Positions 1 through 12,300 of a DNA stretch of 58,046 nt are shown here, one piece after another; positions within the stretch are counted from its first letter, which is position 1; the number at the start of each line of letters is the position of its first letter. Origin of the DNA: Candidatus Kapaibacterium sp. GTDB taxonomy: Bacteria > Bacteroidota > Ignavibacteria > Kapaibacteriales > Kapaibacteriaceae. The translations under genes were made by a program, and so were the position numbers. The notes beneath the pieces were generated by a model. The model saw nothing but the letters and a program-made list of their open reading frames with translations. It did no database searches and was not told the origin of the DNA. The stretch spans positions 1 to 58,046 of the forward strand of contig VERF01000007.1 of NCBI GenBank assembly GCA_018882895.1. The letters are read 5' to 3'.

Positions 1-94
1 AAAAGGCCTTCGCCGCAGTCGTGAGCTGCGCGTGGACCTCGAGTCCGATCACGGCCTCATAAGTGCTGTTCGGGGATGGTACGGAGTTGCCCAA
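1..94 (-). CDS. gatB: GatB, Asp/Glu-tRNA amidotransferase subunit B (N-terminal fragment)
   Basis: Partial gene running off the left edge; only about 31 codons are visible. The minus strand reads ...STYEAVIGLEVHAQLTTAAK, and YEAVIGLEVHAQL is the hallmark N terminus of GatB. GatB is the tRNA-binding and kinase subunit of GatCAB, which converts Glu-tRNA(Gln) and Asp-tRNA(Asn) to the amide forms. An in-frame TAG lies a few codons upstream. The only start codon between that stop and the conserved motif is TTG at 94-92, so a TTG start is inferred. A TAGTTTTG promoter-like element ends 7 nt before it. Identity is secure; the start is not. Confidence 0.85.
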   Translation of the reverse strand, partial: MGNSVPSPNSTYEAVIGLEVHAQLTTAAKAF

Positions 95-101
95 AGGACC
101 A

Positions 102-109
102 CAAAACTA
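102..109 (-). promoter_or_regulatory. Bacteroidota-type -7 element TAGTTTTG before gatB
   Basis: The minus strand reads TAGTTTTG, matching the TAnnTTTG -7 consensus of Bacteroidota primary-sigma promoters. It ends 7 nt before the inferred TTG start of gatB, so transcription may begin at or next to the start codon. No clear -33 TTTG was found. Confidence 0.45.
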
Positions 110-120
110 CGGAAAATCGA

Positions 121-135
121 CGGCCCGACGGGCCG
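121..135 (-). terminator. Short GC hairpin after the dehydratase gene
   Basis: CGGCCC-GAC-GGGCCG is a perfect 6-bp stem with a 3-nt loop. It starts 13 nt after the stop of the dehydratase gene when read on the minus strand. It is followed there by TCGATTTTCC, a weak T tract. It could terminate the icm/dehydratase transcript before gatB. The short T tract keeps confidence low. Confidence 0.35.
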
Positions 136-148
136 GAATCCGACTGCA

Positions 149-1090
149 TTACCCAAAGATTAGACTGCCAAGATCGACGTTGCCGCCGCAGAGCACAATG
201 CCTACGCGACGCCCCGTGGCAAGTTCGGGCTGTTCAAGAAGCACTCCGATGGTGACGCCGGCGCTTGGTTCGATGACGAGCTTCAGACGCGACATCACCA
301 GCAACGTTCCTCGGCGAATGCTGTCCTCGGTGGCTGTTTCGATTTCCACACCGGTGGAACGAAGCTGCTCGAACGTGCGGTCACTCAAACCGGTGCGCAA
401 CCCGTCGGCAATGGTGAGTCGGTCCGTAGGGGGCTGCAACACTCCGGTCAGGAGCGACTCGCGAGCATCAGCAGCAATGGAGGGTTCGGCGCCAACAATC
501 CGAGCCTCGGGTTGGAGCGACCGGACGGCCGTGGCAAAGCCACCCATAAGTCCGCCACCGCCAACCGGGGCCATAACAAGATCAAGCCCCTCTACCTGCT
601 CGCAGAGTTCCAGGCCCACCGTGCCCTGTCCGGCCATTATTCTGTCATCATCGTACGGAGGTATGATGTGAGCTCCTGTGCGCTGGGCTATCTCCTCCAT
701 CGTGCGGATTCGGGATTCTTGTGTGGGCTCACAGAAGGTGATTTCTGCGCCGTATCCACGAACCGCCGCAACCTTCACGGCAGGTGCAGTGTGCGGCATC
801 ACGATCGTACAACTAAGCCCCCTGAGGCCCGCCGCATAGGCAAGTGCCTGCGCGTGGTTGCCGCTTGAATGCGTTATCACGCCGGCACGAAGTTGTTGCT
901 CATCGAGCTGCATGACTGCGTTGACGGCGCCGCGTGCCTTGAACGCACCAACCTTCTGCAGGTTCTCACACTTGAAGAACAACTCGGCGCCAAACATCTC
1001 GTTGAGCGCCCTGGACGTCATCACCGGGGTTCGATGCACATAAGGGGCTATGCGCTGCGCCGCTTGCTGAATGTCGCCGATGTCGATCAC
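149..1090 (-). CDS. PLP-dependent threonine/serine dehydratase (or serine racemase-type)
   Basis: 313 aa, fold type II PLP enzyme. The cofactor lysine is K51 in GAFKARGA. The phosphate/substrate loop SSGNHAQA lies near residues 75-82, and the glycine loop VGGGGLMGG near 175-183. No C-terminal ACT regulatory domain is present, so it resembles catabolic threonine dehydratase (TdcB-like) or serine racemase rather than the long biosynthetic IlvA. The start is GTG at 1090, 6 nt after the stop of the mutase gene, so it is probably the last gene of the icm operon. Threonine deamination gives 2-oxobutyrate, a source of propionyl-CoA, which fits a neighbouring acyl-CoA mutase (inference). Racemase activity cannot be excluded from sequence. 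Confidence 0.85.
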   Translation of the reverse strand: MIDIGDIQQAAQRIAPYVHRTPVMTSRALNEMFGAELFFKCENLQKVGAFKARGAVNAVMQLDEQQLRAGVITHSSGNHAQALAYAAGLRGLSCTIVMPHTAPAVKVAAVRGYGAEITFCEPTQESRIRTMEEIAQRTGAHIIPPYDDDRIMAGQGTVGLELCEQVEGLDLVMAPVGGGGLMGGFATAVRSLQPEARIVGAEPSIAADARESLLTGVLQPPTDRLTIADGLRTGLSDRTFEQLRSTGVEIETATEDSIRRGTLLVMSRLKLVIEPSAGVTIGVLLEQPELATGRRVGIVLCGGNVDLGSLIFG

Positions 1091-1096
1091 GTCACT

Positions 1097-3136
1097 CTAC
1101 ATATTGCGGCGGTACTGACCGCCGACGTCGTACAGAGCCCGGGTCATCTGACCCAGCGAACACTCCTTGGCAGCTTCCATCAGAGATTCGAAGATGTTCC
1201 CATTCTGAACCGCCGTCCTACGCAGATGGTCAAGGGCCGTGTCAGCAGCGTCTCCTCCGCGAACCTTCACGGCGTTGACGTTTGTGATCTGCTGCTCCTT
1301 CTCGTCGGTCGTCGAACGGATCACTTCATCGGGCACGATCGTCGGCGAGCCCTTGGAACTCAGAAAGGTGTTGACGCCAACGATTGGATACTGACCCGTA
1401 TGCTTGAGTGTTTCGTAGTAAAGGGACTCTTCCTGGATCTTGTTACGCTGGTACATGTTCTCCATGGCGCCAAGAACACCCCCGCGATCTGAAATGCGCC
1501 GGAACTCGGTGTACACCGCTTCCTCGACAAGATCAGTGAGCTCCTCGATGATGAACGAGCCCTGAATAGGATTCTCGTTCTTCGTCAGACCCAGCTCGCG
1601 GTTGATGATCAGCTGTATTGCCACAGCACGACGAACGCTTTCTTCCGTCGGCGTTGTGATGGCCTCATCATAGGCGTTTGTGTGCAACGAGTTGCAGTTG
1701 TCATAGATCGCATACAGGGCCTGCAACGTCGTGCGTATGTCGTTGAAGTCTATCTCCTGGGCGTGGAGGGACCGTCCGGATGTCTGAATGTGATACTTCA
1801 ACATCTGTGATCGTTCATTGCCGCCGTAAACGTTCTTCATGGCCTTGGCCCAGATGCGCCGCGCAACACGGCCGATCACGCTATACTCGGGATCGACGCC
1901 GTTAGAGAAGAAGAACGAAAGGTTCGGAGCAAAGTCATCGATGTTCATACCCCGAGAGAGATAATACTCGACGTATGTAAATCCGTTGGAAAGGGTAAAG
2001 GCAAGCTGCGTGATCGGATTGGCGCCCGCTTCAGCAATGTGATAACCCGAGATCGATACCGAATAGAAGTTCCGCACACTCTCGCGGATGAAGTACTCCT
2101 GAACATCACCCATCATGCGAAGTGCAAACTCCGTAGAGAAGATGCACGTGTTCTGCGCCTGGTCTTCCTTGAGAATGTCGGCCTGCACCGTTCCCCGAAC
2201 ACTTGTCAATGCGCGCTGACGACACTCCTCATAGATGTTCGCCGGAAGCACCTTGTCGCCCGAAATGCCGAGCAACAAGAGCCCAAGACCATCATTTCCG
2301 TCTGGAAGCTCAGATGAACCGTCGCCGTGACGATACAGGGGACGCTCAAGCCCCCTATCAGAAAAGTACGCGTCGATCTTCGCGTTGATCTCATCACGAA
2401 GACCATTTTCCCGAATGTACTTTTCGCACTCCTGGTCGATGGCCGCATTCATGAAGAATGCCAGCAGCATCGGGGCCGGACCGTTAATGGTCATCGAGAC
2501 CGATGTTGAGGGGGCGCACAGGTCAAAGCCTGAATAGAGTTTCTTCGCATCATCAAGTGAAGCAATGCTCACACCCGAGTTGCCAATTTTGCCGTAGATG
2601 TCCGGACGGTGATCGGGATCCTCACCATAAAGCGTCACACTGTCGAACGCCGTCGAAAGGCGGGCCGCCGGCATATTCTTCGACAGGTAGTGAAAGCGCT
2701 TGTTCGTTCGTTCGGGGCCTCCCTCGCCGGCGAACATTCGCGTAGGATCCTCGTTGGTACGCTTGAACGGATACACCCCGGCTGTGAACGGAAACTCTCC
2801 AGGAACGTTCTCTTGCATGCACCAGCGAACGATCTCTCCCCAGTCCTTGAAGTTGGGCAGGGCCACCTTCGGTATGCGCGTGTGCGAGAGAGACTCGGTG
2901 AAGTTCTCAACCTTGATCTCTCGGCCGCGCACCGTATAGGTGTAATGCTCGCCGCGGTACTGCGCCTTCTTCTCTTCCCATGTCTTTAGAAGATGTCTGA
3001 CGTCTGCATCGAGCTGAGCCTCAAGGTCTGTGGCCGTCGTACGGAGTGTATCAATGGCAAGCTTCTGTGCGTCAGCCGGCGCAAGGTCCGCCGTCACTGT
3101 TGTCGACTTTTCGATGTCCATAGGTTCACTTGGCAT
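1097..3136 (-). CDS. Mutase half of a split IcmF-type acyl-CoA mutase
   Basis: 679 aa. It corresponds to the linker and C-terminal mutase domain (TIM barrel) of IcmF, the B12-dependent isobutyryl-CoA mutase that is normally fused to its own G-protein chaperone. Diagnostic segments are TAGVYPFKR (residues 118-126), [20 protein letters not shown] (133-152), [11 protein letters not shown] (212-222), [20 protein letters not shown] (321-340) and [11 protein letters not shown]. In known IcmF the substrate-pocket pair is Phe/Gln, and in methylmalonyl-CoA mutase Tyr/Arg; here I read Tyr122 and Gln328. The start ATG at 3136 overlaps the end of the DUF4397 gene by 11 nt. A second in-frame ATG lies at 3121. 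The B12-binding and GTPase domains are in the separate gene at 4496-5920. Substrate (isobutyryl/n-butyryl versus another branched acyl-CoA) is uncertain. Confidence 0.9.
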
Positions 3137-4499
3137 GTTGTACGGAATGAAGAGCGATCTTCGACAAAAGACCGCCGATCCAGAGTGTGCGCACCTCGCC
3201 CGGCTTCAACTGCACGTCAACTCCGGGAAGGATCACGTCCTTGGTGCCGGCACGGTAAACCACTACGGTATGCGTGCCCGGCGTCAGCGCAAGAAACTGG
3301 GATTGTCCCCCGGACACCGAGCTGACCTCGCGAAACTCCAGACTTCTGAATGCATCGGGAATGGATTCCGCCGAGTCCTTCTGAAGCGCTACATCAAGCA
3401 GGGGGCTGTCCGGACACAGATTTACCACACGTATGTAAGCCTTGCCAACGTTCGGAGCGCGTTCAGGTTCGGCGAGCTCGATACCAACGATGTTCGGTGG
3501 AACAAGCGTGCCCGATACGAACATCGTCTTGCGGCTTCGCAACGTCGCTACAGTTCGAACGTTGGTGACCAGCGGAGTACCGTTGGTGAGCACCTCCAGC
3601 GCGTGCGTACCGAGGTCAAGATCGATGTAACCGGTCGCATTCGGGAACGGCACTTGGGCCATCGTCGGTACGATCTTGCCGTCGATCTTCACGTCGATCG
3701 ATCGAATGCCGGTCACGGCATTGACGATCTGGAAACTGCCGACGTCGGGAGGGATCAATAGATCGACGGGCGCATCAAGATCGTTGTCTGTAAAGAGCTT
3801 TGCTTGGAAGGCCCACGTGTCGCCAAGATTCAAGGTTCCCGACAGGAAAAGGGTGTATGACCCGCCCTCGATGAAGTTGATGCCACGGGTAGCCGCTTCG
3901 TATGGTATCTGCCATTCGCGTACCACGCGCAGCTGATGCTCACCAGGGTCGACCGGGAGCCACTTCGAAATAGACCGGATCGGTAGATCTGTGATGGAGA
4001 ACTTCCGGACCTCGTCTACATACACACCCAGATCTCCAAGGGAGAACGTGCCTCCATCAGTTGCGTTGATCACTCGCATTCGAGCTTTGCCAGCCAGCGG
4101 GCTACCGGTATCGCGAACCACAACCACAGTGTCAGGATACCACTTCGGTTCAAAAATTGAAGTTCCCGGGAATGTGACGAGGCTGGTCCGAGTACCGACA
4201 GGAAATGTTGCCGTTGCCTTGGCGTATACCTGCGTCGTCTGCCCGGCGTCGATAGCAAATTCGACGGGTTCAGAGAATGCATCAATCTGTTGCGAAGGGC
4301 CACGGCCACCGCTTTGAACGGTCGATCCATAGGGCTTACCGGCTATGGTCACCCTGGCCGACTTCCCCGGTGTCAGGCCGTTGTATAATCTCACCGTCGA
4401 AGTCTGAACGGTCGGCGTGGTCGGCTCGGTTCCGCCGCAGGAGGCCAGCAGGATGATAGCCACCGCGGCTGGGAGCCACCGATAAAGGATCGGTCTCAT
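3126..4499 (-). CDS. DUF4397-repeat lipoprotein inserted between the two IcmF halves
   Basis: 457 aa. The N terminus [21 protein letters not shown] carries a lipobox (LASC, Cys21) for lipidation and envelope anchoring. The rest holds about four DUF4397-like beta-sandwich repeats, with cores such as [30 protein letters not shown] and [10 protein letters not shown], each followed by a V/DVxVDG-like strand. Its ATG overlaps the stop of the upstream G-protein gene as ATGA (4 nt), and its stop overlaps the start of the mutase gene. The three genes are therefore probably translationally coupled. Function is unknown. Nothing in the family explains why an exported protein should sit between two halves of a cytosolic enzyme; its job may concern the envelope and be unrelated. 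Confidence 0.8.
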
Positions 4500-5920
4500 T
4501 TGCGGCGTCGCTCCGCCGACCGGAGCTCTTCAAGCTGGGCGATCGTTCCATTGACCTGCCACAATCGCCGAGCGATATCCGATTGCTTCTCAACCCTGGC
4601 ATCATAGCGAGTATTCTCTTCAACAAGTTCTGCCAGGTAACGAGTCCGGTCCGGCGGAATGATGTAGATCTTTTCGCTCATCTCGTCGCTGACGGAGAAG
4701 GAAGACTCCCAATCGAGCGAACACCGCTGCTTGAGCGCGTCTATGATGGATCGGTACAGTGTATTTGTGCCCGGATCATTGAATTGTGAGGCGATGGTTC
4801 CGTGCACCGGCATGTTGTCAAGGGGCTCTGCAAACCGCTGTCGGCTGCGCTGATACTGCTTCCGAACGTCGCGGATAGCGTCCAAAGCGCCCCTTTTATC
4901 AAACTTGTTCAGCGCTATGAGGTCAGCATAGTCGATCATGTCGATCTTCTCAAGCTGCGTCGCGGCACCGAACTCCGGCGTCATGACGTACATCGACACA
5001 TCGCACACTTCCATGATCTGACTGTCACTTTGGCCGATTCCGGCTGTTTCGACGATGATAAGGTCGTAGTTGGCATACGACAGGATTCGGATCGCATCTG
5101 CCACGTGCGGATTCAGGGCCACATTGGCCTCGCGGGTAGCAAACGAGCGCATATACACACGCTCGTTGCTCACGGCATTCATCCGTATCCGGTCACCCAG
5201 CAGTGCCCCACCAGTCTTGCGTTTCGATGGGTCTACGCTGATAACGGCAATGGTCCGCCCCGGCTGGTCAAGCAGAAAACGACGCACGATCTCGTCGGTC
5301 AGCGACGACTTGCCGGCGCCGCCGGTGCCGGTAATACCAAGAACGGGTCTGCGTTCCGCCCCCACCGCAAAGGCTACAAGGTCCTTCCTGCCCCGTTCGG
5401 CACAGGAGATGGCCTGAGCGATCGCTCGCGGGTCGCGCATCTTCACTCGGTCGGCAAGTAGTTCCGGAGCATCGACAGGCGGTATGAAGTCGGACTTGGT
5501 TACCAGATCATTGATCATCCCCTGAAGCCCCATGGCCCTGCCGTCGTCCGGCGAATACACCCGGGTGATGCCGGCCGCATGCAACTGATCGATCTCGCTC
5601 GGGAGGATCGTCCCGCCCCCTCCGGCAAAGATCCTGATGTGTTCGGCCCCCTGCTCATCGAGCAGCTGCCGCATATACGTGAGATACTCGACGTGCCCGC
5701 CCTGGTAGGACGTCATGGCAATAGCCTGGGCGTCCTCCTGGATGGCGCAATCGACAACTTCCCGAACCGAGCGGTTGTGTCCGAGGTGAATAACCTCGCA
5801 GCCGGTGGACTGAATGATGCGGCGCATGACGTTGATGGCCGCATCGTGCCCGTCAAACAGCGAGGCCGCTGTCACGACACGGATCATGGTCGAGGGCGTA
5901 TAGGGGGCTTGAGCTTGCAT
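4496..5920 (-). CDS. B12-binding plus MeaB-type GTPase half of split IcmF
   Basis: 474 aa. Residues about 12-140 form a cobalamin-binding domain with the base-off motif DGHD (D23-x-H25, His being the lower cobalt ligand), plus [12 protein letters not shown] and [10 protein letters not shown] MeaB/ArgK-like G domain follows, with Walker A GTGGAGKS at 198-205, [20 protein letters not shown], the ETAGIGQSD region and NKFD as the base-recognition motif. This matches the N-terminal part of IcmF, where the GTPase loads and repairs adenosylcobalamin in the mutase. M1 is at 5920; an alternative start is M12 (5887), just before the conserved [23 protein letters not shown] promoter element lies at 5955-5962. 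It is the first gene of the apparent operon. Confidence 0.9.
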
Positions 5921-5954
5921 CCGAAATGACTCGAGTTCGGTGTGGACAACTCTG

Positions 5955-5962
5955 CAAAACTA
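5955..5962 (-). promoter_or_regulatory. -7 element TAGTTTTG before the split-icmF operon
   Basis: The minus strand reads GTAGTTTTGCAG, containing TAnnTTTG, and ends 34 nt before the ATG at 5920. The same 12-mer occurs before murF (41022-41029). This is the best promoter candidate for the icm operon. Confidence 0.5.
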
Positions 5963-6082
5963 CACAGGATAGGGGCTTGAAGGGCCGGCCGTGTCCTTTG
6001 CGCAACGACAATCGACGGATTCGTCCGCATATTGCCGGCCGTTGAACCAACTAGTTTCGACCACCATTCTGATAGGTTCGTG

Positions 6083-6289
6083 ATGACAAAAAACATCGGT
6101 ACAGTGGATAAAGTACTTCGTCTGTCCGTTGCCGCCGCCTTCGCGATCGCAATCGTCACAAACACCGTCTCCGGCACACTGGCCTGGTTTCTCGGCATAG
6201 GTGCCATCGCGCTGGCGGGTACCGCTCTGTCTTCGTTCTGTGGACTATACTCGATCCTAGGGATATCCACCTGCAAGGTTGCCAAGTAA
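6083..6289 (+). CDS. DUF2892 (YgaP-type) small inner-membrane protein
   Basis: 68 aa from the ATG at 6083. MTKNIGTVDKVLRLSVA followed by two hydrophobic helices (about 13-30 and 33-50) and the ending FCGLYSILGISTCKVAK match DUF2892, the membrane domain found alone or fused to rhodanese in YgaP. An upstream in-frame start at 6032 would add 17 unrelated residues and is not preferred. TAGGTTCG lies 2 nt before the ATG. The gene precedes the beta-CASP gene by 9 nt and probably shares its transcript. Function is unknown; the C(G/P)LY...C motif is conserved in the family. Confidence 0.8.
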   Translation: MTKNIGTVDKVLRLSVAAAFAIAIVTNTVSGTLAWFLGIGAIALAGTALSSFCGLYSILGISTCKVAK

Positions 6290-6298
6290 CCGCATCTG

Positions 6299-7672
6299 GT
6301 GAACGCCGAGCTCATCATGCTTGGAGGCGCCGAGGAGATCGGGGCCAATTGCTGTTACCTTGATCTGGATGGAACCGGTATTCTGATCGATGCCGGACTG
6401 CATCCAAGAGATCGCTCATCAAGGGCATTCCCCGATATCGATGTGTTGGGAGATCGGCCAACCGACGTATTGGTGGTCACACACGCTCATACGGACCACA
6501 TTGGCGCCGTTCCGTACGTAATGCGCCGCCTGCCTCACCTGAGGCCGATCATGACCCATGCCACGCGCGATCTGAGCCACATTGTGCTCCATAACGGGGC
6601 GCGACTGCTACGTGGTGACATCTCTGCGTCGTTCCCAAAGCAGTGGCTCGAGTTCTATGGGCGCGAGGAGATCGAGGCCCTGCGATATGCGTTCGAAGCC
6701 GTACCCTACGATGATCCTCTTCGATTGCGTGGGTATTCGGGTCGATCTGCCATTGACCTCGGCTTGCATTGGTCCGGACACATCCTCGGCTCATCGAGCG
6801 TTTCGCTGAACGTGAAAGGGTTTTCGGTCCTGCATACGGCTGATATCATGCTTTCGGACCAGTTTGTCGTGCCAAAGGCGCGTATTCCCCGGCATCACGT
6901 CGACGTTCTGATCACCGAAGCCACAAACGCTGCCACGAAGCAATTGCCGACGTATGCCGAGGAGACAAAACGTCTTGCCGCCTTCGTCAATGGGATTGTC
7001 GCCAGGAACGGTTCTGTTCTTATCCCATGCTTTGCTCTGGGAAAGCTGCAGGAAATGGTCGTGCATCTGTATTCGATGATGCGGCGCGGGAGCATCCCAC
7101 ATCTGCCGATCTACACCGGTGGTATCGGCGTTCGCATCAACAAGGTCTACGATCAGTATTGTTACAGTGATCCCATGAAGCGTCCGGGCTTCGAGGTCTC
7201 GGATATTCCCCAGGAGCGGCTGCGGCGCGACGAGCTTCTGCATGGCGACTTTATGCGCAATCCATCAATCGTTCTGGCGCCCTCCGGCATGATGAACTTC
7301 GGCACAATGTCGAACACGCTTGCTCGGCAGTGGTTCACACGCCCGGAGTTCGGCATCGCCTTCATTGGATATCAAGATCCTGAATCTCCCGGCCACAGCC
7401 TGCTTGCATCGGAAAAGAAGAAACCGTTCGACTTCGGGTCCACGCGCTCATCTCGCGTGTGTGAGGTCGAACGGTTTCGATTCAGCAGCCATGCCTCCGG
7501 CGAGCACCTCGTGGAACTCGCCGAAGACATTCGTCCCTCAACAGTCGTGATCACGCACGGTGACGCAGGTGCGTGTGAGTCACTCGCTCTCGAGATTCAC
7601 GAACGTCTGCCCGGAACACGAATCATCATTCCGCAGCACGGGAAGCCATATACGCTGCTACAGTCTGAGTGA
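6299..7672 (+). CDS. Beta-CASP metallo-beta-lactamase-fold ribonuclease (CPSF/YSH1-like)
   Basis: 457 aa, GTG start. The metallo-beta-lactamase metal motif is THAHTDHIGA (H62, H64, D66, H67), and further ligands lie in SGHILGSSSV and LHTADIM. The C-terminal half has beta-CASP features: VLIPCFALGKLQEM, MNFGTMSNTLARQW and a terminal VVITHGDAGA. Family members are Zn-dependent RNA endo/exonucleases related to the 3'-end processing factor CPSF73, distinct from RNase J. It probably processes cytosolic RNA; the substrate is unknown. Its stop at 7670-7672 directly abuts the stop of the convergent gene at 7673. Confidence 0.88.
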   Translation: MNAELIMLGGAEEIGANCCYLDLDGTGILIDAGLHPRDRSSRAFPDIDVLGDRPTDVLVVTHAHTDHIGAVPYVMRRLPHLRPIMTHATRDLSHIVLHNGARLLRGDISASFPKQWLEFYGREEIEALRYAFEAVPYDDPLRLRGYSGRSAIDLGLHWSGHILGSSSVSLNVKGFSVLHTADIMLSDQFVVPKARIPRHHVDVLITEATNAATKQLPTYAEETKRLAAFVNGIVARNGSVLIPCFALGKLQEMVVHLYSMMRRGSIPHLPIYTGGIGVRINKVYDQYCYSDPMKRPGFEVSDIPQERLRRDELLHGDFMRNPSIVLAPSGMMNFGTMSNTLARQWFTRPEFGIAFIGYQDPESPGHSLLASEKKKPFDFGSTRSSRVCEVERFRFSSHASGEHLVELAEDIRPSTVVITHGDAGACESLALEIHERLPGTRIIIPQHGKPYTLLQSE

Positions 7673-8356
7673 TCATCGGTTGATGATCAGGGGGCGACGA
7701 AAGCGCTTGCCTGACGTCGACACCGCCTGCACGGTATAGGTGCCGATGCTCAGATCTGAAATGTCGATCGAACAACCTTGAGCTGACTCCACAGGATCGA
7801 CCACCTTGACACGCGAGCCGTGAACATCGATCAGCTCGATATGTCGTATCGGCATGTTCCAAGCGACACGCACACGGTCACTGGCCGGCATGGGCGCGAC
7901 TTGAATGTTCTCAGCCAAGGCCCCTGCCTCAGGTGTCGATGTTGGCATCGGAGCGGCCCTCTGAAACGTCAGAAAGCCCACACTCGACATTGCACGATCC
8001 GGCTGGCGTGTGTCACGAACCATAATCCGGTATCGCGAGCCGTCTTCGATCCCTGCTGGAATGGTCCACACGAGCTGTGTATTCTCCTCCGTCAGTCCCT
8101 CGGCAAGCACGTGAACGGTTCTGCGAACACCGTCCCACAGGACAACGTCGACATTCGCGGCCTCAAGATCATTTGTCCATCGAATGGACATTACCGTGCC
8201 GGGAGAGAGTGTTGTCGACGGCTCGATCGTGTGAACCGAGACGTCTGCCATGACCCTGCACACAGTAACAAATAGCAGAACGAGAGAATGAGGCAGCACG
8301 GAGCTGCCCAGCCCCCTGCCAAAGAGTGGCAGGGAGCATTGAATGAAGTATTTCAT
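7673..8356 (-). CDS. Secreted KNH-like domain protein with T9SS sorting domain
   Basis: 227 aa. A hydrophobic N terminus (about 16-37, ending ...CRVMA before DVSVHTIEP) is a signal peptide. A Kre9/KNH-like beta-sandwich module follows at about 40-132, with key segments SIRWTNDL, VDVVLWDG, TIPAGIEDGSRYRIMVRD. Residues about 150-227 form a type A T9SS C-terminal domain: IQVAPMPASDRVRVAW, IELIDVHGSRV, ISDLSIGTYTVQAVS and the ending RRPLIINR. It should be secreted by the type IX system and surface-attached. It is the last of three co-oriented secreted-protein genes, 11 nt after the preceding one. No enzymatic motif is seen. Confidence 0.78.
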   Translation of the reverse strand: MKYFIQCSLPLFGRGLGSSVLPHSLVLLFVTVCRVMADVSVHTIEPSTTLSPGTVMSIRWTNDLEAANVDVVLWDGVRRTVHVLAEGLTEENTQLVWTIPAGIEDGSRYRIMVRDTRQPDRAMSSVGFLTFQRAAPMPTSTPEAGALAENIQVAPMPASDRVRVAWNMPIRHIELIDVHGSRVKVVDPVESAQGCSIDISDLSIGTYTVQAVSTSGKRFRRPLIINR

Positions 8357-8367
8357 GAGTTTGATTC

Positions 8368-9333
8368 CTAGTAAAGGTGAATGAGGGTGTGAGTTGTGTG
8401 GTGCTCATTGTGCACCACACACAGGTACACGCCCGATGCCAAGCCCTCTAAGGACACCCGTTCCATTGCCGACGTCCACAAGACGCGGCGTACTAACTCT
8501 CCCGTAGCCGACATGATCAGGATCTCTCCGGAGGCCGGCGTTGCGCGCTCAATGACCAAGGACGTCCCTGATCGACTGACTGTGGTCGCACTCTGTGCTT
8601 GCTCACGAACGGTGGTTGTTCGTGCACGGAAGAAAGCATTGAAGACGGTTGTTACATTGACCGGCCAGCATCGCATCGTGATGACCTGAAACGGAGCGTA
8701 GATGTCATATGGAATCGTTGCGTGTGTGCATGTCCAGTACATGAATTCGTATTTCTCATTGCTCCATGCGTTCAGTCGGAATGGGGCATCGCCGGTGTTA
8801 ACCGCTTGGTCGACCGTAGGCTCGACGAGTGTTCCCTCCTGTATCTCCAATCCTGTTTCGAAATCAATCGCTCGGGCATGAGCCCGAAATCCGCGGGTGA
8901 CGCGAAACGAGATGACCGTGGTGTCGGTGTAGTCCTTGCCTCGCCAGTACTCACAGTATGTGTGTACCTCATAGGTCCTGTTCTTTCCAAGGTCAAACTC
9001 TGGTTCGAGCTTTTCACCGGGGACGACCATCACGCGATCGACGTTCTCACAGATCGACGTCGAGGGGATCAACCGATACGTCTTGACCGGACCCTGACTG
9101 AGCACTTCAAACAGTGCCGCACATGTACCCGGTGACATCAAGCCGGTTGGTTCCATTGGAGGTGTGTAGCCGATCCGCAACGTGTCCATGCACTGCGGGA
9201 TCACTCCTCCCCACTGCTGGTGGGGCAGCTCAATGATGTTCTCGTAGCACGTCGTCGGAGGCAGCATCGGTTGCGCACCCGCGAAACCGAGTACCATCGG
9301 AAGAAGAAGCAGGGTGATTACGAATGTTCTCAT
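8368..9333 (-). CDS. Secreted protein with InlB-B-repeat-like module and T9SS sorting domain
   Basis: 321 aa from the ATG at 9333; an upstream TTG (9345) would only add four residues before the signal peptide. The signal peptide MRTFVITLLLLPMVLGFAGA is predicted to be cleaved before Gln21. A middle segment ending YEFMYWTC...VTTVFNAFF resembles the divergent InlB B-repeat/Big-type module, here with cysteines. The C terminus (SGTSLVIERATPASGEILI ... LEGLASGVYLCVV ... THTLIHLY) is a T9SS type A sorting domain. The same W/C-rich module appears in the 1086-aa neighbour encoded at 9395-12655, suggesting related surface proteins. Function unknown. Confidence 0.75.
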   Translation of the reverse strand: MRTFVITLLLLPMVLGFAGAQPMLPPTTCYENIIELPHQQWGGVIPQCMDTLRIGYTPPMEPTGLMSPGTCAALFEVLSQGPVKTYRLIPSTSICENVDRVMVVPGEKLEPEFDLGKNRTYEVHTYCEYWRGKDYTDTTVISFRVTRGFRAHARAIDFETGLEIQEGTLVEPTVDQAVNTGDAPFRLNAWSNEKYEFMYWTCTHATIPYDIYAPFQVITMRCWPVNVTTVFNAFFRARTTTVREQAQSATTVSRSGTSLVIERATPASGEILIMSATGELVRRVLWTSAMERVSLEGLASGVYLCVVHNEHHTTHTLIHLY

Positions 9334-9394
9334 GACTGAACTCAATAACAGTAAATGAACGGTAAATGAGTGGCTTCCAGAGCTAGCATGTAAC

Positions 9395-12300
9395 CTATCG
9401 CACGACGGCGCGGGAGACGAACCACTGCCCCCTCAAGCGATAATCAGCATTTTCTTCTGAAAGGAAAATACGTGGGGCTGTGGGGGTTGACATTCCCCAG
9501 AGATTGCCGGAGCTTTCAAGGAATGTCACTTCGCCGATCAGATCATCCTGCTGTGAGACCGGCAGAAGAGCGGAGATGAGGCTCGAGGCTAAGGAGACGA
9601 CATCATAGATGGCATCCTCCTCGGAGGGATCGAGCGTGTCTCCCTTGTATCGATCGGAGCGAACCTTCAGATCAGCAAGAATCGTTCGAAGGGAATTCAC
9701 CAGGCAGCGGTCTTCGTCCTGACAGTCTTCATCCCAGGATCCGATGCGGGCAAACGCAAGATCACCCCAGTCCATCCATGCCGTTTGTGCCCATATCTCC
9801 CTGTCGCCAAATGGAAAGACATCGCCCTCGTCGCCACACTCCCTCGTGCAATGTCCATCGCTCTTGCGCTGCTGTCCGCAATCCGGATAGCGTACGAAGC
9901 CGTCGGCATTGACGATCGGGCCGAACGGCGACGTGTTCATCCCGAAGAGGGCGTGGTACATTTCGCCGTGGTCTTCCCACGGGAAGTAGTCTGTATCACC
10001 ATCGAACTTGAAGGTTGCATCGGTGACGCGGATGCCGAAACCAGGAAGCTCCATGCGCCGTATGGCGAAAAGTTGCATTGCCTGAAGGGGCTCGTTGTCA
10101 ATCGATCGAATACCAGTCGTACAGAGCAGATCTATCATCCCAGCATGAAGCGCCTGAAGAATTGGTTTACTACCGGGTTGATACACGGCGAACTCCACGA
10201 TGTCGAGGTACTGACCGGTCGACGAAAGGATGACTGCATTTCCTAACTCGCTACTTGTTGTGGTGAAATCCAGCCCCTTAGCCTGCGCGTCGGTGTGAAG
10301 AATGTTAGCAAAGCTCTCCGCGACGATGCCGCCCGCGTAGATCGAATTGACGTCGACCGGACGCGAGAACTTGATCTTTATCGGTGTTCCTCGCCGGGCG
10401 ATGTATTCAACCTGACGACCTCCCTTGGGCTCGTCAGTGTCAGAATCGTAGTACAAGAGCGGGTCATACCAACGCTCCACATACGTGTATCTCCACCGTT
10501 CATCTCCCTGGCGGATTCGAACGCGAAGAGCAATTGATTCCACGACGAACCGCTTCCTAAAGGCAGCACGTATGGCCACCTCTTTGTGTCCGAGGGGTCT
10601 TCCGTCACAGGCTGTGGCATCGAAGTTCGCTATGGACTCGTCAACCTTCAGCGTGTACACGCGCGCGTTTCGAAGCGTCTCCGCTTCCCTTGGGACAGCA
10701 TATCGATTCCGTGCCGACCACCAGAGCCATTCCTCTCCGCGCTGGGTTGCGGCACGCACGACCATTCTGATCTTGTCGCCGCATCGAAGTCCCACTCGCT
10801 GCGTAGAGATACCATCCTTGGTGCAGATCACGGTCGGCATCGGGAGCCATGTCTCTACGCCGTTGATGATCGCAAGCTTGTCTACATCAATCCGCGTTTC
10901 GCTGTGCGGCGATTTATCAAGGATCACATCCTCGTCGTTGTCCGTTGCCAGCAAGACCCTCTCGATGCGCACGTCGATCGGGATGCGTCGGCCAAAGATC
11001 ACAAGTGTGTTCTCCGGATCAAGCAGTTCGGCATCTACGCACAGATCACGTCGCCCCTTGTCAAACCACACCGGCGGACCCGTGGCAGCGTCGTGGTAGC
11101 CAACGATCTCCCAGCAATCTTCGGCAAGCACGCAGACCGTGCGCGTCGTGCGCTTCGTTTCCTCATACTCGTTCGGCGTAGTGAACACAACGTGATCCTC
11201 GATCGCATGCCCTTCTTCCGGTTGAGAGTTCATAACTCGGGCCCGCAGTCGATATCGATCGCCGACCAGTGGCGTCAGCTTCTGAAACTGTGGATTGATG
11301 AACACTTGCAGCGAGGTTCCAACCTGACCGGCGTTGGGCGACGACTGCGCTGTTCCTCCGGAGCCGTTTGAAGAGACGGTCAGTGCGCTGACCGGTACGG
11401 TGATCGATGGTGCTGTGATGGAATTGCACCCCGATATTGAACTTGTCCATGACGAGAAGGTTGCCCCCGTCAGGGGGCGTGCGGACAGAAACAGGCGCGA
11501 TACAGTCGTATCTGCGCGGATCGTCGCAGAATCAGTCACCATGGCCAGCTCCCGACCGTCCTGATCGGTGACCAAAACCGTGCCCAATGTATCTGTGCGG
11601 ATCAGAACATCGATCGTATCCAGGAACTCATATACCGCCCGCACTTCTATCGACGCTCGCAACGCCGAACAGTCGATCGACGCCTGGATCGACGAAGATG
11701 TGTTGCCGTGGATGTCCGAGATCGACTCGCACTCCCACCTGACAAATCGCCAGCGCTCATCGGCGTACGAAGGCATTGATAGCGCAACGCCTGTCTGGTG
11801 CGTTACCACCGAAGCATTACGCTCCGCAGCATCCAGGATCGTTTCCGAAACTGAACGGCCCGTGGTTGAGACCGGACGAACCGTCAGTCGAGCTGCACCG
11901 CGAACCATCGATTCAAGTCTGCGGTCATCCGTAGAAACACCCGTCAGTCGCGATAGCTTGACGTTGATGCGAAGCGCTGAATTCGGCGTCCATCCGGCAG
12001 GGGGCATAGCAGCCAACAGCGACGGGGAGACGCGTTGTACCTGCACAGACGTTACAGGTTGCCATGTGCCGTCGGCGCTCTGCTGGTCGATATCCAGGAG
12101 ATCGTAGGCGGACACGTCCATGCCGATCGCCCCAGTGAAACGTAGCCATACAACAGATGAACACAGCACGACGTTGCCGCTGTCCATGGTGCTGGCCTGG
12201 AGTCGAGGTACATCTTCAGCCGTTGTGAACTCGAGATCGATAGGGGCCATTTCCTGTGGTCCACCTTTGCCTTCCACCACGATTCCCTGAATGATGCATC

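Follow-up and report, generated by a model that had tools for sequence, protein, structure and literature searches.

The window analysed here, a stretch of 58,046 nucleotides from Candidatus Kapaibacterium sp. (GenBank assembly GCA_018882895.1, contig VERF01000007.1, positions 1 to 58,046), very probably encodes a naturally split isobutyryl-CoA mutase (IcmF), with a lipoprotein gene between its two halves that is a passenger in the gene run and not part of the enzyme. Described IcmF is usually one long protein, and as read from the sequence the present arrangement would be a variant of it, made of two polypeptides with a gene between them. Three minus-strand genes were found where the original prediction, a note made on the letters alone, had placed them. 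They are transcribed in the order B12/GTPase (5920-4496), DUF4397 lipoprotein (4499-3126) and mutase (3136-1097).

4496..5920, minus strand: B12-binding and MeaB-like GTPase protein, the N-terminal part of IcmF (474 aa)
4496..4499, minus strand: ATGA stop/start overlap of the B12/GTPase and DUF4397 genes (4 nt)
3126..4499, minus strand: DUF4397 lipoprotein (457 aa; two DUF4397 stretches by Pfam; all-beta model)
3121..3136, minus strand: DUF4397/mutase junction (ATG at 3136 gives an 11-nt overlap, ATG at 3121 a 4-nt gap)
1097..3136, minus strand: mutase substrate-barrel protein, the C-terminal part of IcmF (679 aa; 674 aa from the second ATG)

Pfam detected B12-binding and MeaB domains in the first protein, DUF4397 in the middle one and MM_CoA_mutase in the third. 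With the IcmF equivalog model NF045497, the B12/GTPase scored 652 bits and the mutase 1100 bits, each below the whole-protein cut-off of 1500. Jointly the halves span model positions 2 to 1076, the B12/GTPase covering 2-468 and the mutase reaching up to 1076. In the PDB search the top match of either half was C. metallidurans IcmF. Two open reading frames were found in place of one polypeptide, each half under the 1500-bit cut-off; the predicted domain content is IcmF-like, yet this is not a fused IcmF. The arrangement is relevant to annotation, because both halves fall short of the curated IcmF score.

The motifs of the enzyme were located in both halves.

5837..5854, minus strand: DGHDAA cobalamin motif, residues 23-28 of the B12/GTPase (invariant in 39 split proteins)
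5306..5329, minus strand: P-loop GTGGAGKS, residues 198-205 (invariant in 39 split proteins)
4946..4957, minus strand: switch III Q322..K325, aligned with Q341/K344 of C. metallidurans IcmF
2732..2734, minus strand: F135 of the mutase, aligned with F598 of C. metallidurans IcmF
2153..2155, minus strand: Q328 of the mutase, aligned with Q742 of C. metallidurans IcmF

F598 and Q742 are ICM-type substrate residues of IcmF. Between them the halves thus carry a DGHD cobalamin domain, a MeaB-like GTPase with P-loop and switch III Q/K, and a barrel with the ICM-type F and Q. In the alignment of 39 split B12/GTPases, DGHDAA, P-loop and switch III Q/K were all invariant. Replacing Q341 or K344 in IcmF reduces GTPase activity (PMC10481361).

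The position of the cut was compared with IcmF structures. In a cryo-EM fit, IcmF was treated as two rigid fragments, 22-442 and 443-1093, the second containing linker and barrel (PMC10481361), and the linker makes the dimer interface (PMC10356863). An AlphaFold2 model of the split B12/GTPase (mean predicted local distance difference test score, pLDDT, 81.5) ended in one helix of 51 residues.

4502..4654, minus strand: predicted long C-terminal helix of the B12/GTPase, residues 423-473, first part of the IcmF linker

VIA-align 2 placed B12/GTPase residues 7-421 on IcmF 21-441 (5cjt_A; Z 47.1, root-mean-square deviation (rmsd) 2.6 Å, 409 residues aligned). One VIA-align 2 row extended to residue 468 on IcmF 489 (5cjv_A, rmsd 9.5 Å), and the cut therefore lies near IcmF residue 490. 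The first linker stretch thus remains on the chaperone half, and the rest begins the barrel protein. All 38 split B12/GTPases examined end within about 25 residues of the same linker-helix motif.

Because the two proteins give full domain cover, keep the motifs and are cut in the linker, we infer that they would reassemble non-covalently into an IcmF-like enzyme. The first gene encodes the cobalamin-binding domain together with the MeaB-like GTPase and the initial linker helix, and the last gene encodes the substrate-binding barrel, opening with the remainder of the linker.

The closest known systems share part of this arrangement. IcmF of C. metallidurans (PDB 4xc6/5cjt/8ssl; NF045497) has the same domain content and order, motifs, F/Q residues and B12/GTPase fold. 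In contrast to this single polypeptide, the window has two, cut in the linker, with the DUF4397 gene between them and both halves under the model cut-off. Methylmalonyl-CoA mutase (MCM) with stand-alone MeaB/MMAA likewise keeps chaperone GTPase and barrel separate and has a MeaB-like G domain, but there the cobalamin domain sits on the mutase, whereas here it sits on the chaperone. In 2-hydroxyisobutyryl-CoA mutase (4r3u), barrel and cobalamin domain are on different chains, and the large and small subunits match the two halves; IcmA/IcmB is a two-subunit acyl-CoA mutase of the same kind. The small subunit of the 4r3u type has the cobalamin domain only, whereas here the GTPase is present as well.

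We corroborated the split in a sample of 60 genomes, the window's own and 59 relatives; all counts rest on the matches listed. IcmF was split in 42 genomes, fused in 17 and not found in one (G046). In three of the 42 the B12/GTPase is cut by a contig end. Split forms were observed in the window's family f1 (23 genomes) and in f3 (6), f6 (1), f7 (6), f9 (5) and f10 (1), fused forms in f2 (5), f4 (3), f5 (6) and f8 (3). In all 23 genomes of f1 the halves lie close together on the same strand. In the 19 split genomes of the other five split families of the order, the mutase never adjoins the B12/GTPase; in G031 both halves are on one contig, about 15 kb apart. An IcmF-type mutase was detected in 18 of these 19 (one partial), and in G030 a split B12/GTPase was found but no IcmF-type mutase.

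Outside the order, the 124 matches listed for other classes of the phylum are without exception in frames at least 1,088 aa long. Among the 13 matches listed for the remaining orders of the class, 11 have frames >1,000 aa, the shorter ones being G106 (678 aa) and G120 (346 aa). A contig-end case (G359) was left out of this account. The nearest named record to the window among 80 named loci, at 77% identity, is a Candidatus Kapaibacterium metagenome-assembled genome (L032). The claim of the original prediction that IcmF is divided over two genes is thus borne out by the domains and by recurrence in the family. A fused IcmF at the same locus lacking the lipoprotein, which would have spoken against it, was not seen; the fused proteins sit in other neighbourhoods. 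No description of a split IcmF was found, by title or start of abstract, in the literature on IcmF, isobutyryl-CoA mutase, MeaB/MeaI and gene fission, in a search whose coverage excluded most subscription journals. The name IcmF in PMC11962581 refers to a different protein, of type VI secretion.

A tree of 73 concatenated rows was calculated, leaving out 10 rows without a mutase piece and two partial ones (G281, G032). Subset trees, including a 59-row test and a tree with L059, were made without near-identical or distant rows. Family f1 forms one clade (support 100*). Since fused f4 and f5 stand beside split f3 members and fused f8 stands between split groups, the best tree requires at least 3 split/fused changes, and 4 with L059 included. 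A single clade of all split rows was not rejected on the 59-row subset (approximately unbiased test, p 0.107). Within the order, the sequences may thus reflect several fissions, or one fission with re-fusions.

L059, a metagenome-assembled genome labelled Chitinophaga pinensis, has a separate 473-aa B12/GTPase (7986-9407), with the mutase on another contig. In the tree it groups with fused Bacteroidota, and its split therefore looks separate and outside the window's order.

The window comes from a 131-contig assembly, and we considered whether the split could be an error of sequencing or assembly, or whether an insertion had disrupted an IcmF gene now in decay. This explanation is almost certainly wrong, as the same split occurs in 23/23 family genomes and 19 further genomes of the order, the motifs are conserved, and no repeat >20 nt marks an insertion in window 1-6300. 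The ratio of nonsynonymous to synonymous substitution rates (dN/dS, NG86) is also low. The pair G005/G008 gave values of 0.05 (B12/GTPase), 0.014 (mutase) and 0.15 (DUF4397), and the pair G018/G022 gave 0.06 (B12/GTPase) and 0.08 (DUF4397). All three genes are under purifying selection. The original prediction had named an assembly artefact as an outcome that would overturn it; the insertion recurs in independent genomes and is not one. A mobile-element insertion was tried as a candidate and rejected, as window 1-6300 has no flanking repeats beyond short chance-like pairs.

On another view, the B12/GTPase might have ceased to be a subunit and might serve several mutases, this one included, as a free MeaB-like chaperone that supplies them with cobalamin. 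The G domains of fused IcmF lie at opposite ends, so that they cannot pair within one dimer and need oligomers to do so; once apart from the barrel, a G domain could dimerise as in MeaB (PMC10356863, PMC10481361). In the other split families, the genes for B12/GTPase and mutase are also not linked. We nevertheless regard a free chaperone as very unlikely, since the window's genome already has a stand-alone MeaB homolog, the mutase barrel itself lacks a cobalamin domain, and the search of the window's assembly yielded no MM_CoA_mutase gene beyond that of the split IcmF. The missing second mutase may reflect loss or an assembly gap. An adenosyltransferase is present in the same genome. A second mutase of about 725 aa is present in G005, G008 and G009.

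A related idea is that the cofactor-bearing B12/GTPase swaps in and out of the mutase as a cartridge that delivers and repairs adenosylcobalamin, its G domains dimerising as in MeaB. The retained linker helix would then be a docking handle. The cofactor itself would then not have to move from one protein to another. We consider this unlikely, but if true it would add a third way of delivering B12 to the two known from MeaB/MCM and fused IcmF. PMC9974510 asks why IcmF is fused. The limit on G-domain pairing would not apply to a free B12/GTPase, and the split lineages therefore offer a test of this question. A lineage with fused, split-adjacent and split-unlinked forms is a natural experiment, in which one can join or separate the halves and see how cofactor loading and oligomer formation differ.

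The stop codon of the DUF4397 gene ends at 3126. The three closest relatives, G005, G008 and G009, have their first in-frame mutase ATG at the position that corresponds to 3121, again with a 4-nt gap. Therefore, the 11-nt overlap is probably an artefact of start choice, and the genes abut all the same. Of the two overlaps originally proposed, the 4-nt ATGA at the first junction stands and the 11-nt overlap at the second probably does not. Translational coupling at the second junction, which had also been suggested, needs a start codon that the close relatives do not support. Under the chosen starts, the 4-nt overlap of B12/GTPase and DUF4397 genes was seen in 11/20 genomes, several of these starts being weak or having alternatives. 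The same-strand genes abut tightly enough for a single transcription unit, and they may be co-transcribed as one run. Promoter and terminator scans gave counts within the shuffled range, no better than shuffles.

The middle gene was examined separately. It matches PF14344 with 106.4 bits (gathering cut-off 30.6), as do all 19 aligned family members; the alignment holds 19 of 20 proteins, the truncated G021 being left out.

4437..4439, minus strand: lipobox cysteine C21 (LASC), in a Cys column invariant in 20/20 family members

The strict lipobox pattern occurs within the first 70 residues in 15/20 family members, and with its signal peptide and lipobox the protein is a predicted lipoprotein. 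It shares Pfam match and lipobox Cys with other DUF4397 (PF14344) lipoproteins and differs from them by its place inside a split enzyme gene. Median identity between members is 30%. DUF4397 domains were found in all 23 family genomes (at least 4 to 16 matches each), and DUF4397 is therefore a common domain in this family.

The DUF4397 model is all-beta (pLDDT 85). A fold search returned tandem Ig-like domains, the closest being the extracellular domain of PepT1/PepT2 (E 7.6e-7, but TM 0.31), and a profile search likewise matched this domain (E 1.4e-5). The tandem domains (3126-4499) hence resemble Ig-like domains of animal peptide transporters, from which no function follows. No paper on the function of DUF4397 was found by title or start of abstract, with most subscription journals outside the coverage.

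The three-gene order was sought in related genomes, as the original prediction had proposed, and is present in 20/23 genomes of the family to which the window belongs. Its statement that a whole DUF4397 lipoprotein gene lies between the halves is confirmed. In the other three genomes (G002, G004, G007) the halves are separated by 11-12 nt and no gene lies between them. Searching these genomes with a profile of the inserted protein gave best scores of 68.5, 31.9 and 46.1 bits, and no DUF4397 ortholog was found elsewhere in them. True members scored 487.7 (G006), 527.9 (G000, the window's genome) and 559.0 (G010) bits. G002, G004 and G007 form one clade inside a genus (support 100*), and we therefore count one loss. 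The junction has also received other genes. In G017 it holds a metal P-type ATPase gene, and in G012, of the same genus, the DUF4397 frame (L123:7697-9202) opens with an HMA (CopZ-like) domain ahead of the signal peptide. This single loss, which left the halves 11-12 nt apart with no ortholog elsewhere, and the metal genes in the junction support the passenger explanation. The DUF4397 gene would then encode an Ig-like lipoprotein that is exported and has a separate task at the cell surface, co-expressed with the enzyme and dispensable for it.

The genes around the three were considered as well.

149..1090, minus strand: pyridoxal phosphate (PLP)-dependent ammonia-lyase/dehydratase-type enzyme, next gene downstream (kept in 20/23 family loci)

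The downstream run of the family loci further holds genes for peptidoglycan (PG)-binding (9), tetratricopeptide repeat (TPR; 4), GatB (16), Aminotran_4 (13) and E1 2-oxo acid dehydrogenase (9) proteins, in counts limited by contig ends and fetched length. Where the contig is long enough, the PLP gene is kept in 20/21 loci and an upstream divergent beta-CASP gene in 17/19. Unrelated neighbours are kept about as well, and retention of the DUF4397 gene is therefore not exceptional.

Several points weigh against a split enzyme with a mere passenger. The DUF4397 gene is kept in frame between the halves in 20/23 genomes with dN/dS of 0.08-0.15, and its 4-nt overlap with the B12/GTPase gene in 11/20 could mean a useful coupling. 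The fit loosens to rmsd 9.5 Å once the last helix is included, so that packing of this helix is unsure. Complex formation and mutase activity of the halves are predictions. The first two points would suit a lipoprotein coupled to the mutase, where co-translation keeps surface-protein output in step with acyl-CoA metabolism (lipid make-up, substrate uptake), as would the persistence of the gene despite drift to about 30% median identity, its purifying selection and the lipobox Cys in 20/20. However, the gene is absent from a well-supported clade whose halves are intact and adjacent, no DUF4397 occurs in the gene clusters around the halves of other split families, and the PLP and beta-CASP neighbours, unrelated to the enzyme, show about the same retention. 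The run also includes further non-metabolic genes (PG-binding, TPR, GatB), and heavy-metal genes entered the same junction. Coupling of envelope and acyl-CoA metabolism, raised in the original prediction, is thus left unsupported by the one-clade loss, the absence in other split families and the metal genes, and we judge it quite unlikely. The DUF4397 gene is a caution that a place within an enzyme gene run alone proves no functional link.

IcmF interconverts isobutyryl-CoA and n-butyryl-CoA (PMC9974510). The Aminotran_4 and E1 genes of the downstream run suit breakdown of branched-chain amino acids to isobutyryl-CoA and would support this as the expected substrate of the split enzyme. At 8368-9345, two genes from the divergent beta-CASP gene, lies a gene without Pfam family (cluster C9) that is absent in G002, G004 and G007, the clade without the DUF4397 gene.

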